A DNA stretch of 35,951 nt. It comes from Mariprofundaceae bacterium. GTDB taxonomy: Bacteria > Pseudomonadota > Zetaproteobacteria > Mariprofundales > Mariprofundaceae. Where the stretch lies: NCBI GenBank assembly GCA_030950585.1, contig JAUZRG010000039.1:1-35951 (forward strand). Reading direction: 5' to 3'. The translations under genes and the position numbers were made by a program. The notes beneath the pieces are model-generated. The model saw only the letters and a list, made by a program, of their open reading frames with translations, did no database searches and had not been told where the DNA came from. Position 1 is the first letter of the stretch; the number at the start of each line of letters is the position of its first letter. Below, one piece after another: positions 15,423-26,376 of this stretch.

Positions 15423-16382
15423 TTATGACTGAAATATTCCCAACTGACGCAAGTTTTGTTGACGTTGTTCCAAGAGTTTATCTTCGGGCAAAATCATCAA
15501 ATGATTCAAGTTATCCTGCAAACGTTTATCTAATATTGCAGCGGCCTCTTTGGGATAACGATGCGCACCACCCAAAGGTTCAGGGATAATTTCATCAATC
15601 AGTTTTAACTCTAGTAGATCTTTTGCGGTTAATTTCAATGTTTGTGCAGCTTGCTCAGCAAAGGCACGGTCGCGCCACAAAATAGCCGCACAGCCTTCAG
15701 GTGAGATCACCGAATAACTGGTATATTGTTGCATCAACAAACGATCGCCAACGCCAATAGCCAAAGCACCGCCTGAACCACCTTCACCAATCACTGTGCA
15801 AATAATAGGCACACGCAATCTTGATAACTCCAGCAAGTTTGTGGCAATCGCTTCACTCTGTCCGCGCTCTTCTGCATCAATACCCGGCCAAGCACCTGCG
15901 GTATCAATGAACGTCAAAACAGGAATATCAAAACGTTCGGCTAATTTAAATAAGCGCAATGCTTTGCGATAACCTTCAGGGCGAGCCATACCAAAGTTAC
16001 GTTTTAACTTCTCTTTGGTATCACGGCCTTTTTGTTGTCCAACCAGCATCACACTGCGGCCATGAAAGCGGGCCAACCCACCCACAATGGCTTGATCATC
16101 AGCAAAAGCACGGTCACCATGTAATTCTTGAAAATCATCAAACAAGTGTTCAACATAATCAAAGAAGTAAGGCCGCTCTGGATGACGAGACAATTGGCAT
16201 ATTTGCCAAGGGCTAACTTTTTCATAAATTTGGTGTAATAATTTATCACGTTTTTGGCTTAACTTTTGCACTTCTTCGGCAATGTTGACATCGGCCGCAC
16301 GACCCATGCTGGAAAGCTCTTCTATCTTCACAGTCAGTTCAGCAATAGGTCGCTCAAACTCTAAATAACTATGTGGTATCAC
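15423..16382 (-). CDS. accA: Acetyl-CoA carboxylase carboxyltransferase subunit alpha
   Basis: AccA with AccD transfers the carboxyl group from carboxybiotin to acetyl-CoA, giving malonyl-CoA for fatty acid synthesis. The 319-residue length is standard. Family hallmarks are [10 protein letters not shown] at the N-terminus, [33 protein letters not shown] and [14 protein letters not shown]. It starts with GTG at 16382, with GAGGAG seven bases upstream inside dnaE, overlapping dnaE by 14 bases. The dnaE-accA order is conserved in many proteobacteria, which supports a normal chromosomal backbone here. Confidence 0.97.
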
Positions 16383-19300
16383 GCTTTATCTCCTCAGGCT
16401 GCCATATATGGCAAATCACACGCAGCACATCATGTCCAAATAATTCTTCAAGTGCGCGCGTCACTGTATCATTCCAAGTCAAGGTTCGCGAAGTTTGCAT
16501 TTCAACCAAGCAACCATTTCCCAGACGAACATGCAGTGCGAGCGCGCTTTCTCCCGGTGAAGAAGCCACAATATCATTGACCTTTTCCAGACGTTTATCT
16601 TCCCATGCAAACTCTGTCGTACTCAAAATAAGACGATTCACAAGTTGAGGCAAGATATCATCTAAACGCACCATATGACGTGCCAGTAATGAAGGCTCAT
16701 CACGGCTTAAATCCACTTGTGCTGAAATCAGCAATAAGTCTTCGCTATTCAATAAATCAATGTTTTTTTGATACATTTTGGAAAAACAAACAAGGTCAGC
16801 TTCACCGTGTAAATCTTCAATACGCACAAAAGCCATCGTGCCACGATTGCCATGATGCACACGCACGTTTTTCACCGTCGCAGGAAAAACAATGCTTTGA
16901 CCATCATTGCACTGGGTCAATGAGGCAAGGTCAGTATTGGCCAAACCTTCAATGTGTTGCAAGCTTGCTTCCAAGGGATGCCCTGTTAAATAAAAGCCCA
17001 ACACATCTTTTTCGTGTTGAAGCACTTCACCTGCATTCCAAGCCTCCAACTCTGGCCACTCGCGTTCCGTTTCAAAAGCTGCTGTCGAAAAAAGCTGCAT
17101 TTGATGGGATGATTCTTCACCTTGTCGTCGACGCGCATCAGAAATCAAGCTACTTAAACTCTCAATGGCCACACGCTGATGCGGAATGAGACCGTTGCAA
17201 GAGCCTGACTTAATCAATGCTTCCAAGACTCTTTTATTGAGTGTTTTTTCTGCGACCCGTTCCAACATCTCAGAAAAAGATTGAAACATCTGGCCGCGCT
17301 GTCGTGCCGCCGTTAAAGACTCAATCGCCGCTTGACCCACGCCTTTAATCGCACCAAGACCATAACGAATGGCTTTTCCTTCAGGAACAAATTCCCAATA
17401 AGATAGTTGAACTGAAGGCGGTAATATCTCAATGCCCATTTGCTGACAATCTTGAATTAACATGACTACTTTATCAGTATTCCCCATATCACATGAAATA
17501 CTGGCAGCCATCAAAGCCAAAGGATAATGGGCTTTTAGATAAGCCGTTTGATAAGCAATGAGTGCATAAGCCGCTGAATGCGATTTATTAAAACCATAAC
17601 CCGCAAATTTTTCCATTAAATCAAAGATATATTCCGCTTTATTAGCATCAATATGTTGATCAGCGGCACCTGCCATAAAGATGCTGCGTTGCTGTGCCAT
17701 TTCTTCAGGTTTCTTTTTACCCATCGCACGCCGCAACATATCGGCTTGTCCCAAGGAATAACCCGCTAAAACCTGAGCAATTTTCATCACTTGTTCTTGG
17801 TATAAAATGACACCATAGGTTTCATCTAAGATCGGTTTTAATTGCGGTAACACATAAGAAACTTCATCGCGGCCGTGTTTCCGTTCGATAAAATCATCGA
17901 CCATGCCTGACTTCAATGGGCCTGGACGATACAAAGCCACCAACGCGATCACATCTTCAAAACGGCTCGGCAACAAACGCGTCAGCAAATCACGCATACC
18001 TGAGGATTCAAGCTGAAAGACCGCACCCGTCAAACCTTTTTTCAACAAGGTATAGGTAGCCTCATCATCGAGAGGAATCTGCGTAATATTAAATGTTTTT
18101 TCTTCTTCACTCTGACCATGAAGGTGGAGCAGTTTTTCAGCTTTATGGATGACGGTTAATGTTTTTAAGCCCAAAAAGTCAAACTTCACCAAGCCAACTT
18201 TCTCAGCACTCTTCATGTCCCACTGCACCATCACACTACCTTCGCGTGGATCGCGATATAGGGGGGCAATATTGGTTAAAGGCGTGCGGCCAATGACCAC
18301 ACCTGCGGCATGTTTACCTGCATGGCGATGTAAACCTTCTAGTTTTCCTGCAATTTCAAACAAGCGCGTGATACGCGGATCTTTTTCAATAATTTTACTT
18401 AATTCAGGCTCAACATCCAAGGCTTTATCAAGGGTCATATTCATATCAGCGGGGATGAGCTTGGCAATCACATCCACATCGGCATAAGGAATATCTAAGA
18501 CACGACCCACATCGCGCACCACAGCTTTGGCTTTCATCGAGCCATAAGTAATGATTTGCGCCACATGATCCTGACCATACTTCTTGGCAACATATTGAAT
18601 CACCTCATCACGGCGATCCATGCAGAAATCAATATCAAAATCGGGCATGGATACCCGTTCTGGATTCAAAAAACGTTCAAACAGCAAATTATAATATAAA
18701 GGATCTAAGTCTGTGATGCCTAGAACAAAAGCCACCAGTGAACCCGCTCCAGAACCACGACCTGGCCCCACAGGAATATCTTGATCTCTCGCCCACTGAA
18801 TAAAATCAGCCACAATCAGGAAGTAACCAGGAAAGCCCATTTTACAAATAATATCTAATTCAAAATCCAAGCGTGCCATATAATCTTGACGCACAGCATC
18901 GGGTCTTTGCTGCATAATGCGTGGCCAATAAGCTGTCAGACGCTCATGCGACAAAATGCGCATATGTGTCTGTAGATCCGTATCACCAGGAACTTCAAAA
19001 TGAGGTAATTGGTACTGACCAAACTGCATATCCACATTACAACGACAAGCAATATGCATGCTATTTTCAATGGCTTCGGGAATGTCTGCAAAAAGAACCT
19101 GCATTTCTTCATAACTTTTGAGATAACACTCAGCGTTCACATGGCCATGAAACTCATCATTCATGGTTCTGTTTTGCTGAAGTGCCTGCATGGCTTGATA
19201 AGCTTCAAAGTCATCGCGCGCTAAAAAATGCACATCATTGCTGGCCACAAGCGGAATATGCAGTTCATGTGCGATATCAATCAGTTGTTGATTAAGTAAG

Positions 19301-19884
19301 TCTTGGCCTTGAATACCTGTGCGCTGTAATTCAATAAAAAAACAATCTTGGGCAAAGATCGACATATATTCTTGCGCGACACTATAAGCTGCTGGCTCAT
19401 TTCCCTTGCGCAATAACTGCTCAATCTCACCATTCCAACCTGAAGATAAAGCAATCAAACCTTCGCTATACTCTTTGAGCAACGCATGGTCGACACGCGG
19501 TTTATAATAGAAACCTTCCAACCATGAAATAGACACTAATTTTAATAAGTTTTCCCAACCGTGGTTGGTTCTGGCCAATAAAACCAAGCTGGGATAATTC
19601 GGTTGCCGCCTTCCACCTTCATTTTTTTTAACTTGGTAATTAGGGCATAAATTCACTTCCAAGCCCATCACAGGCTTAAGCCCTTTTTTAACGGCAGCAC
19701 TATAAAACTCAACCGCACCAAATAAATTGGCATAATCCGTCAGGGCAATCGCGGGCTGTTGTAATAAAGCGGCCTTATCAATCAAGGAACTTACGGTTGC
19801 AGCAGCTCCCAGCAGTGAAAAGTCAGAATGAACATGTAAATGAGTAAAAGAAGCAAAGCGCATGCTGCAAAGTCTATCTTGCAT
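16369..19884 (-). CDS. dnaE: DNA polymerase III alpha subunit DnaE
   Basis: DnaE is the catalytic subunit of the replicative DNA polymerase. The N-terminal PHP domain begins [13 protein letters not shown]. The catalytic aspartates are in [12 protein letters not shown] (about residue 400) and in [11 protein letters not shown] (about 560). [20 protein letters not shown], the helix-hairpin-helix region and an OB-fold segment ([18 protein letters not shown]) follow. Length is 1171 residues, typical of the DnaE1 type. The ATG at 19884 opens the frame; the ATG at 19863 ([12 protein letters not shown]) matches family starts better. Neither has a clear Shine-Dalgarno. It is divergent from rpoH, with 126 bases between them. 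Confidence 0.98.
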
Positions 19885-19945: not shown

Positions 19946-19987
19946 TTGACTTTATTTTAGCACTCTCTAAGCTAGAGTGCTAAAATA
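19946..19987 (+). promoter_or_regulatory. CIRCE operator (HrcA site) and promoter of rpoH
   Basis: TTAGCACTC (19957-19965), 9 bases, then GAGTGCTAA (19975-19983) is an exact match to the CIRCE consensus bound by the heat-shock repressor HrcA. The symmetry extends to 13-base perfect arms (19953-19987). A -35-like TTGACT (19946-19951) precedes it; TAAGCT (19968-19973), in the spacer, is a possible -10 at 16-base spacing, so bound repressor would cover the promoter. The rpoH ATG is 23 bases downstream, after a CGGAGAG ribosome site (19998-20004). The operator also lies 69 bases before dnaE on the other strand. Confidence 0.93.
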
Positions 19988-20010
19988 CTATCACAGTCGG
20001 AGAGCTCGCT

Positions 20011-20793
20011 ATGAAAACCTTAGAATTATCAAGCCTTTCATCCTTTTACCGTGAAATAAAAAGAACACCGACCTTAGCAAGAGAAGAGGAATACCAACTC
20101 ACCAAACGTTGGCAACAACACCAAGATAGTGCAGCAGCCCATACGCTGGTTGTCTCCAATACCTATGCCGTTGCAGCCATAGCCAGAGAGTACCGACACT
20201 TTCATTTAGCTGAAATGGATTTAATTCAAGAAGGTTGCATTGGCTTGATGAAAGCCATCAAAGGCTTCGACCCCGACAAAGGTTTTCGCCTCATGAGCTA
20301 TGCCAATTGGTGGGTTCGCTCAGCTATCCAAGAATTTATTTTGCACAATTGGCGTATTGTTAAATTAGGCACCAATAAACTCCAGAAACGCATATTTGCA
20401 AGCCTAAAATGTGCAAAAGAAGCCATCACAGGATTTGATAAGCTAGAAAAAGACAGCCCTGAGTATCAACAACATGCCCAAGCATGGCTCAAACAAGATG
20501 TCTCACTCAATGCGGACCGTGAAGGCCATGAACTAAGCCAACAAATGCCTTCCGACATCGCCACACCAGAAGAAGCTTTGATTCAAAAAAACACAAAACA
20601 AGTGCAACAACAACAGCTTAAAACAGCGTTGTCATGCTTAAACACCCGTGAACGGGATATTATGATTCAACGCCATCTGCAAGAACCCCCGAGCACACTC
20701 AAAGAAATATCCCAAGACCTATCCATATCCATTGAGCGTGTGCGACAATTAGAAAAAAAGGCTGTTCAAAAATTAAGACAACAAATGTTGTAG
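20011..20793 (+). CDS. rpoH: RNA polymerase heat-shock sigma factor RpoH-type
   Basis: This is a sigma-70 family factor of 260 residues, slightly shorter than E. coli RpoH (284). Region 2 is clear (EMDLIQEGCIGLMKAIKGFD, then FRLMSYANWWVRSAIQEFI, 68-110). LQKRIFASLK (124-133) is a degenerate form of the RpoH box between regions 2 and 3. Region 4 (about 205-258) ends in a helix-turn-helix, LSISIERVRQLEKKAVQKL. The factor would direct polymerase to chaperone and protease promoters. The perfect CIRCE upstream suggests HrcA represses it, linking two heat-shock systems. Start ATG has CGGAGAG at good spacing. Another alternative group-3 sigma factor is possible but less likely. Confidence 0.88.
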   Translation: MKTLELSSLSSFYREIKRTPTLAREEEYQLTKRWQQHQDSAAAHTLVVSNTYAVAAIAREYRHFHLAEMDLIQEGCIGLMKAIKGFDPDKGFRLMSYANWWVRSAIQEFILHNWRIVKLGTNKLQKRIFASLKCAKEAITGFDKLEKDSPEYQQHAQAWLKQDVSLNADREGHELSQQMPSDIATPEEALIQKNTKQVQQQQLKTALSCLNTRERDIMIQRHLQEPPSTLKEISQDLSISIERVRQLEKKAVQKLRQQML

Positions 20794-20914: not shown

Positions 20915-21761
20915 ATGAATAACACATCACAAAAGCACCATTTTATTCCTATTTTTTATCAGAAAGGGTTTCGCTCTGATCAGGATGAGTTGTTTGCTTA
21001 TAAGAAAGATCGTGGTGGTATCAAGATTCGGTCACCATCTCAAATTATGTATGAGAAAAACTTGCACACTTTTCAGCATAAAGGTGAAGAAAGCATGATT
21101 GAAGATTTTTACTCGAAGTTAGAGGGATGGTTTAGTGAGTATTCAAAAATCATGGAGAATATAGATAATCCCAACCTTATTGGAGAATTAATGAAAGATG
21201 GTAACTTTCAGCGTCTAGCTAAACTCATGGTATCTATACAGTTTTGGAGAACTCCTTGCCGTACACAGCAAGCTATCATTTACGCAGAGAAATTGGTCAA
21301 TCTTTATGATAAAGCTGATGATGAAACAAAGACATTTCTTTACCATAATAGGGATCTTGTTGAATACCACAGTAAAAGGGCTGTTAGATATCATAAGAAA
21401 AGGGCAAAGAAAAACGACTCATTAAAACTCATTCAGTTTTTTCTTTTGCCATTACTCTCATTTGATATTTCATGTAAAGTGAAAAATTTTAAACTTTTTC
21501 AAGCAAATGAACATAAAAAGTTTATAACATCAGATAGACCAGTCATATATTGATAATATTGAAGATTTATTCAGCTTCAAACTTTTTGTTTTTCCATTCT
21601 CAAAAGACCTACTACTTGTAAGTGATGAGCGAGATATCAAGTCACTGAATATTGATAAAATTAATTTATTGATTGCTAATAGAGCAGCAAACATTGTTAT
21701 ATCAGGAGATCAGAAACAGCTTGAGGAGCTAAAAAGTTTATTAAGCGAAACACCTGTGTAA
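20915..21761 (+). pseudogene. DUF4238 family protein, broken by one frameshift
   Basis: The first 212 codons encode a DUF4238 protein: QKHHFIPIFYQKGF at the N-terminus and KKFITSDRPVIY near the stop are the two family hallmarks. The frame ends at TGA 21551-21553. In the next frame, translation from about 21549 gives IDNIEDLFSFKLFVFPFSKD and continues to a TAA at 21759-21761, supplying the missing conserved C-terminal part (about 70 residues). One base has been lost near 21540-21550, by mutation or sequencing error. A GTGAGGG ribosome site precedes the ATG. The function of DUF4238 is unknown; such genes often sit in variable regions, as this one does. Confidence 0.8.
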
Positions 21762-25599: not shown

Positions 25600-26376
25600 A
25601 TGATAGAAAACGACATCAAAGAAGAAATCTTAAAACGCCTGCGAGATACAGAAGAAAAAGAAGACGTTAAAATCCTGATGGCCATTGAATCGGGAAGCAG
25701 GGCTTGGGGTTTCCCCTCGCCAAACAGCGATTATGATGTGCGGTTTATCTATGCGAGAAAAAAGGACTGGTACCTAGCGGTCGACCTTGAAGATAAAAGA
25801 GATGTGATCGAATACCCCATCGTGGATGAAATAGATCTCAACGGCTGGGATGTCAGAAAAGCACTACAACTATTCTGGAAATCTAACCCCGCATTTGTGG
25901 AATGGATTCAATCCCCCATCACCTATATGAATCATGGCAGCTTCAGAGAAGATGCTTGCCACTTGTTGCCAAGCATCTATTCAGTCGAAAAAGGCATCCA
26001 TCACTACCTTAGCATGGCTAAAAACAACTACCGTGGCTACCTCCGAGAAGAGATGGTTCCACTAAAAAAATACTTTTACGTGCTCAGACCATTGCTTGCC
26101 ATTCAGTGGCTAGAAAAATATGGCAGCGCGGCACCAATAGAGTTTGATAAAATGCTTGAATTGCTCACAGATTGTGAACTATTAGGTTCCATTCATGATT
26201 TACTGGAAAAGAAAAAAGTCAGTGAAGAAAAAATGTTGGCTCCAACCATGCCCGTGTTAAATAAGTTCATCGAATCTGAGCTAAGTCGGCTTGAAGCCAC
26301 TCAACCCGAAAAATCAAATCGTGAAGCTGAAATGACTCAGTTGAATGCATTGTTTCATAAGGTTTTAAGTGAATAA
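25600..26376 (+). CDS. RlaP-type nucleotidyltransferase (PF10127-like)
   Basis: The 258-residue protein has an N-terminal polymerase-beta-like nucleotidyltransferase core: ESGSRAWGFPSPNSDYDVRF, with Gly32-Ser33 and acidic Asp44 and Asp46. The following RKKDWYLAV and GWDVRKALQLFWKSNPAFVEW segments match the RlaP family, sometimes found with RNA-repair genes. No ligase or RtcB-type partner is near, so the substrate is open. A GAAGGACAG ribosome site precedes the ATG. It lies 44 bases after nhaA and may be cotranscribed with it. Confidence 0.85.
   Translation: MIENDIKEEILKRLRDTEEKEDVKILMAIESGSRAWGFPSPNSDYDVRFIYARKKDWYLAVDLEDKRDVIEYPIVDEIDLNGWDVRKALQLFWKSNPAFVEWIQSPITYMNHGSFREDACHLLPSIYSVEKGIHHYLSMAKNNYRGYLREEMVPLKKYFYVLRPLLAIQWLEKYGSAAPIEFDKMLELLTDCELLGSIHDLLEKKKVSEEKMLAPTMPVLNKFIESELSRLEATQPEKSNREAEMTQLNALFHKVLSE

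Follow-up and report, generated by a model that had tools for sequence, protein, structure and literature searches.

Repression by HrcA and activation by the sigma factor RpoH are generally presented as two distinct ways of responding to heat shock. The locus described here, in a 35,951-nucleotide stretch of DNA from a Mariprofundaceae bacterium (the window), raises the question of whether the two are joined: a CIRCE element, the predicted operator of HrcA, lies directly upstream of a gene for an RpoH-type sigma factor.

The CIRCE element and its surroundings

A consensus search identified a CIRCE core at positions 19957-19983, TTAGCACTC-N9-GAGTGCTAA, with no mismatches to the CIRCE consensus. 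It is the sole match across the window when up to three mismatches are allowed, and shuffled controls gave no matches in 100, with none expected. The palindrome continues beyond the consensus (TATTTTAGCACTCT / AGAGTGCTAAAATA) and has 13-bp arms at 19953-19965 and 19975-19987, or 14-bp arms around 7 bp if the T19966-A19974 pair is counted. The exact 9-9-9 element and the 13-base arms that a first-pass annotation of this DNA had described are thus both present. That annotation gave 24 bases to the rpoH start; the count is 23 bp from the end of the extended arm to the rpoH-type ATG at 20011, and 27 bp from the end of the 27-bp core. The features of the region are as follows.

16369..19863, minus strand: dnaE, DNA polymerase III alpha, divergent; the open frame extends to 19884
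19946..19973, plus strand: promoter candidate P1, TTGACT-16-TAAGCT, -10 within the CIRCE spacer
19953..19987, no strand: extended palindrome, 13-bp arms (14 with T19966-A19974)
19954..19983, minus strand: mirrored promoter-like match, a consensus match only, the sole one found towards dnaE
19957..19983, no strand: CIRCE core, TTAGCACTC-TCTAAGCTA-GAGTGCTAA, predicted HrcA operator, no mismatches, one of four in the genome
19957..19986, plus strand: promoter candidate P2, TTAGCA-18-TAAAAT with an extended -10 (TGC), consensus match
19999..20002, plus strand: Shine-Dalgarno GGAG, 8 bp 5' of the ATG, read from the sequence
20011..20793, plus strand: rpoH-type sigma factor gene, 260 amino acids

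Directly 3' of rpoH is a gene for a DUF4238 protein (20915-21553). The window also encodes an RlaP-family protein (RNA repair pathway DNA polymerase beta family) at 25600-26376, with a score of 280 bits.

The RpoH-type sigma factor

The product of 20011-20793 is an RpoH-type but divergent sigma factor. Sigma-70 regions 1.2, 2 and 4 are present, the best family is RpoH, and the chain in the closest solved structure is named RpoH. Because the protein scores under the curated NCBIfam cut-offs (240 bits versus 323 for TIGR02392, and 236 versus 241 for NF005143), we use the label RpoH-type. The proteins of relatives L013 and L037 also fall below the TIGR02392 cut-off but exceed that of NF005143. 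In a phylogenetic tree the protein groups with the RpoH of relatives, not with RpoD; its branch is very long and belongs to one of the two groups of RpoH in zetaproteobacteria (SH-aLRT 94). Five aligned relatives show 53-58% identity, and nine residues between regions 2 and 4 that are common to these five are missing from the protein. No second RpoH-type sigma gene was detected in the genome, where the remaining sigma-70 relatives identified are RpoD and a split RpoS-like gene. The latter (L011:3632-4470, contig C210) is spread over two overlapping frames, and is either a frameshifted gene or an assembly error.

Candidate promoters

The CIRCE element covers every plausible sigma-70 promoter of rpoH, these candidates being consensus matches rather than mapped promoters. 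P2 has its -35 hexamer in one CIRCE arm and its -10 hexamer in the other. At the position of P1, relatives carry TTGACA-17-TATAAT (L013) and TTGACT-16-TATAAT (L014), and the P1 -10 is a perfect TATAAT in genomes G014 and G001. In other genera promoter-like sequence is found just before or partly after CIRCE; it shifts relative to the element between genera, yet stays adjoining or inside it.

hrcA and other CIRCE elements in the genome

The genome is a 2.5 Mb draft that is 99% complete. A search for hrcA, which the first-pass annotation had proposed as a check, found the gene with 285 bits against a TIGR00331 cut-off of 197, at the head of the order hrcA-grpE-dnaK-dnaJ. There are four CIRCE elements, all at heat-shock genes: the one at rpoH without mismatches, two at groESL with one mismatch each, and one at hrcA with one mismatch. 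No further CIRCE with up to three mismatches was found in the 2.5 Mb genome. Features of an HrcA regulon are in place: the genome has hrcA, and the canonical targets, groESL and hrcA/dnaK, each carry CIRCE. No protein of the genome passed the curated cut-off for ClpB; the highest-scoring candidate, a 765-amino-acid frame at contig C178:24918-27131 (L224, L225), is well under it and is probably ClpA.

Distribution within the order

Two RpoH groups occur in the order, and CIRCE is present at one group only. Among genomes with an rpoH orthologue of the CIRCE-bearing group, 17 have both hrcA and the element, two have hrcA without it (G142 and G226), none has the element without hrcA, and 19 have neither. 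This co-occurrence gives a Fisher probability of 1e-8; when corrected for kinship, with four independent pairs on well-supported branches, it is not significant. CIRCE tracks hrcA in about two of these four pairs, and the reverse is never seen. The element at rpoH is kept where hrcA is kept, while the surrounding sequence changes freely between genera. Four genomes of genus g10 carry hrcA and have no CIRCE at rpoH; their best RpoH belongs to the other group.

Relatives also have extra RpoH proteins outside the CIRCE-bearing group (L209-L217; genomes G005, G007, G009, G010, G019, G027, G032, G034, G036 and G037). These never have a CIRCE, and some genomes carry both kinds.

Sigma-32-like sequence was found upstream of 11 of the 21 CIRCE-less rpoH genes of the same group and of one of the 17 with CIRCE (Fisher 0.004), a probability that ignores kinship, with most of the 11 coming from one genus, g9, and that counts sites up to shuffle p 0.1, a cut chosen after the values were seen. 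An example from g9 is CTTGAAA-N14-CCCCAC in L199. More generally, g9 relatives (L199-L203, L196-L198 and L208) carry CTTGAAA/T, 12-14 bp and CCC/CCT about 75-96 bp 5' of their CIRCE-less rpoH. These sequences suggest that CIRCE-less relatives may have swapped HrcA repression for RpoH autoregulation; two of the genomes in question still carry hrcA.

Wider distribution and precedent

In a sample of 399 genomes of the phylum, 223 of which have hrcA, CIRCE precedes a sigma factor gene in at least 32 (a lower bound, because the CIRCE-sigma pattern is strict), and all 32 have hrcA (hypergeometric 3e-9). Outside the order the pattern is accompanied by hrcA in 17 of 17 genomes (2e-4). A scan of named genomes gave at least 118 CIRCE-sigma loci, at least 114 of them with an RpoH-type open reading frame; four of the 118 matches listed are not RpoH. 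The listed taxa with CIRCE at rpoH include Nitrosomonas, Variovorax, Dyella, Alcanivorax, Pseudoalteromonas, Methylobacter, Thiobacillus and Geobacteraceae, and the loci are mostly from beta- and gammaproteobacteria among the matches listed. In such loci from Nitrosomonas europaea (L163), Variovorax (L080), Dyella (L098) and Pseudoalteromonas (L088), CIRCE precedes an RpoH-type gene, as here, and the -10 overlaps the right arm of CIRCE, as in P2. However, the RpoH proteins of these beta- and gammaproteobacteria are only about 32-39% identical to the product of 20011-20793.

Because CIRCE itself is symmetric, its left flank serves as a control for this overlap. A -10 hexamer lies over the right arm in 91 of the 114 rpoH loci and at the mirrored flank in one, among the matches listed; equivalently, GAGTGCnAnnAT is read rightward in 91 and leftward in one of these listed CIRCE loci. 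The associated probability of 5e-40 is overstated because the loci are related.

The first-pass annotation implied that a CIRCE at rpoH was novel. A perfect CIRCE at position -51 of rpoH was, however, predicted in 2004 in Geobacter sulfurreducens, the sole such case among the genomes of that study (Rodionov et al. 2004, PMC545781, Table 8), and the arrangement is widespread. As here, further CIRCEs in G. sulfurreducens lie at groESL and at hrcA-grpE-dnaK-dnaJ, and dnaK-dnaJ is preceded by a predicted sigma-32-like promoter (PMC545781). That species belongs to another phylum, and the present analysis also covered the overlap of CIRCE with the promoter and its co-occurrence with hrcA. In the open-access literature searched, we found no description of the wide spread of CIRCE at rpoH. 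The arrangement is thus already known; what is new is that it occurs in Zetaproteobacteria and is widely spread, together with the hints of a sigma-32-type promoter in CIRCE-less relatives.

Proposed circuit and alternative explanations

We infer HrcA binding, repression, the response to heat and the use of promoters by RpoH from these arrangements. Taken as a whole, they are very probably best explained by direct repression of rpoH by HrcA, derepression on heat shock, and feed-forward by RpoH. HrcA bound to CIRCE would block access to the rpoH promoter for RNA polymerase carrying the main sigma factor. In other bacteria GroE keeps HrcA active, and in known systems HrcA is inactivated when unfolded protein titrates GroE away. 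On heat shock HrcA would lose activity and rpoH would be derepressed along with groESL and hrcA-grpE-dnaKJ, after which new RpoH would add transcription from its own promoters, one candidate being a sigma-32-like site shortly 5' of dnaK. The classical HrcA/CIRCE systems at groESL and dnaK operons share the operator, the repressor and the presumed heat signal; their targets are chaperones, whereas here the target would be a sigma factor.

Since hrcA is present, CIRCE is found at all heat-shock loci concerned, and the element at rpoH co-occurs with hrcA, repression of rpoH by HrcA, as the first-pass annotation had predicted, appears to be the best reading; the three heat-shock loci are the only places where CIRCE occurs. 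The same annotation went too far in proposing a hierarchy instead of two parallel systems, because predicted HrcA sites also lie directly at groESL and the dnaK operon. The dnaK site, GTTGAAT-N14-CCCCAT, is 71 bp 5' of the gene (shuffle p 0.003, with five heat-shock upstream regions tested), and the upstream regions of groES, hrcA, grpE and rpoH contain no sigma-32-like site that stands out. With CIRCE at groESL and dnaK and this promoter-like sequence at dnaK, a feed-forward loop is a better fit than a strictly hierarchical circuit. The site suggests a coherent loop in which CIRCE would act on both rpoH and the hrcA-dnaK operon and RpoH would act at dnaK. Across the genome the strict sigma-32 consensus has five matches compared with six in the control, and none of three matches whose surroundings were inspected is at heat-shock genes; the targets of RpoH are therefore uncertain.

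The CIRCE element might instead be a relic or of little effect, with rpoH controlled mainly after transcription as in E. coli, where RpoH is controlled through translation, binding by DnaK and GroE, and proteolysis. Such control is established in that organism, and rpoH lacks a CIRCE in many relatives. However, the site is perfect and is conserved with hrcA amid freely changing sequence, and it is missing in every one of the 19 relatives that have the same rpoH orthologue and lack hrcA, which argues against a relic. An Rfam search of the window returned no RNA element, and so no match to a known RNA thermosensor family that would favor post-transcriptional control. We consider this explanation improbable.

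Slightly less probable again is that the main role of CIRCE lies in the control of dnaE, or of the two divergent genes together, via the mirrored minus-strand promoter, with rpoH secondary. The first-pass annotation raised an effect on dnaE and put its start 69 bases away. This is correct for the opening of the reading frame at 19884, 69 bp from the extended arm; the conserved start is at 19863, which probably puts dnaE about 90 bp away. The extended palindrome does give a promoter-like match on both strands, and the minus-strand match is the sole hint of an effect on dnaE. However, among the relatives examined dnaE adjoins rpoH only in the source genome, whereas CIRCE stays with rpoH, and the mirrored -10 is missing in 113 of 114 other loci among the matches listed. 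As a conserved partner, dnaE is rejected on the basis of the relatives examined; co-control with rpoH may occur in this genome but finds no support in conservation.

Implications

Direct repression of rpoH by HrcA may be one instance of a layer of control that extends widely through zeta-, beta- and gammaproteobacteria, has the promoter inside CIRCE, and can be exchanged for sigma-32-type autoregulation where CIRCE disappears, often along with hrcA. We offer this broader proposal tentatively, as somewhat more likely to fail than to hold. Should such repression operate in many proteobacteria, HrcA and RpoH would be parts of a single circuit, with the level of the sigma factor set by GroE acting through HrcA. 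This could be tested in species that can be cultured and share the layout, for example Nitrosomonas europaea, and the Zetaproteobacteria allow comparison between close relatives that have CIRCE at rpoH and others that lack it.
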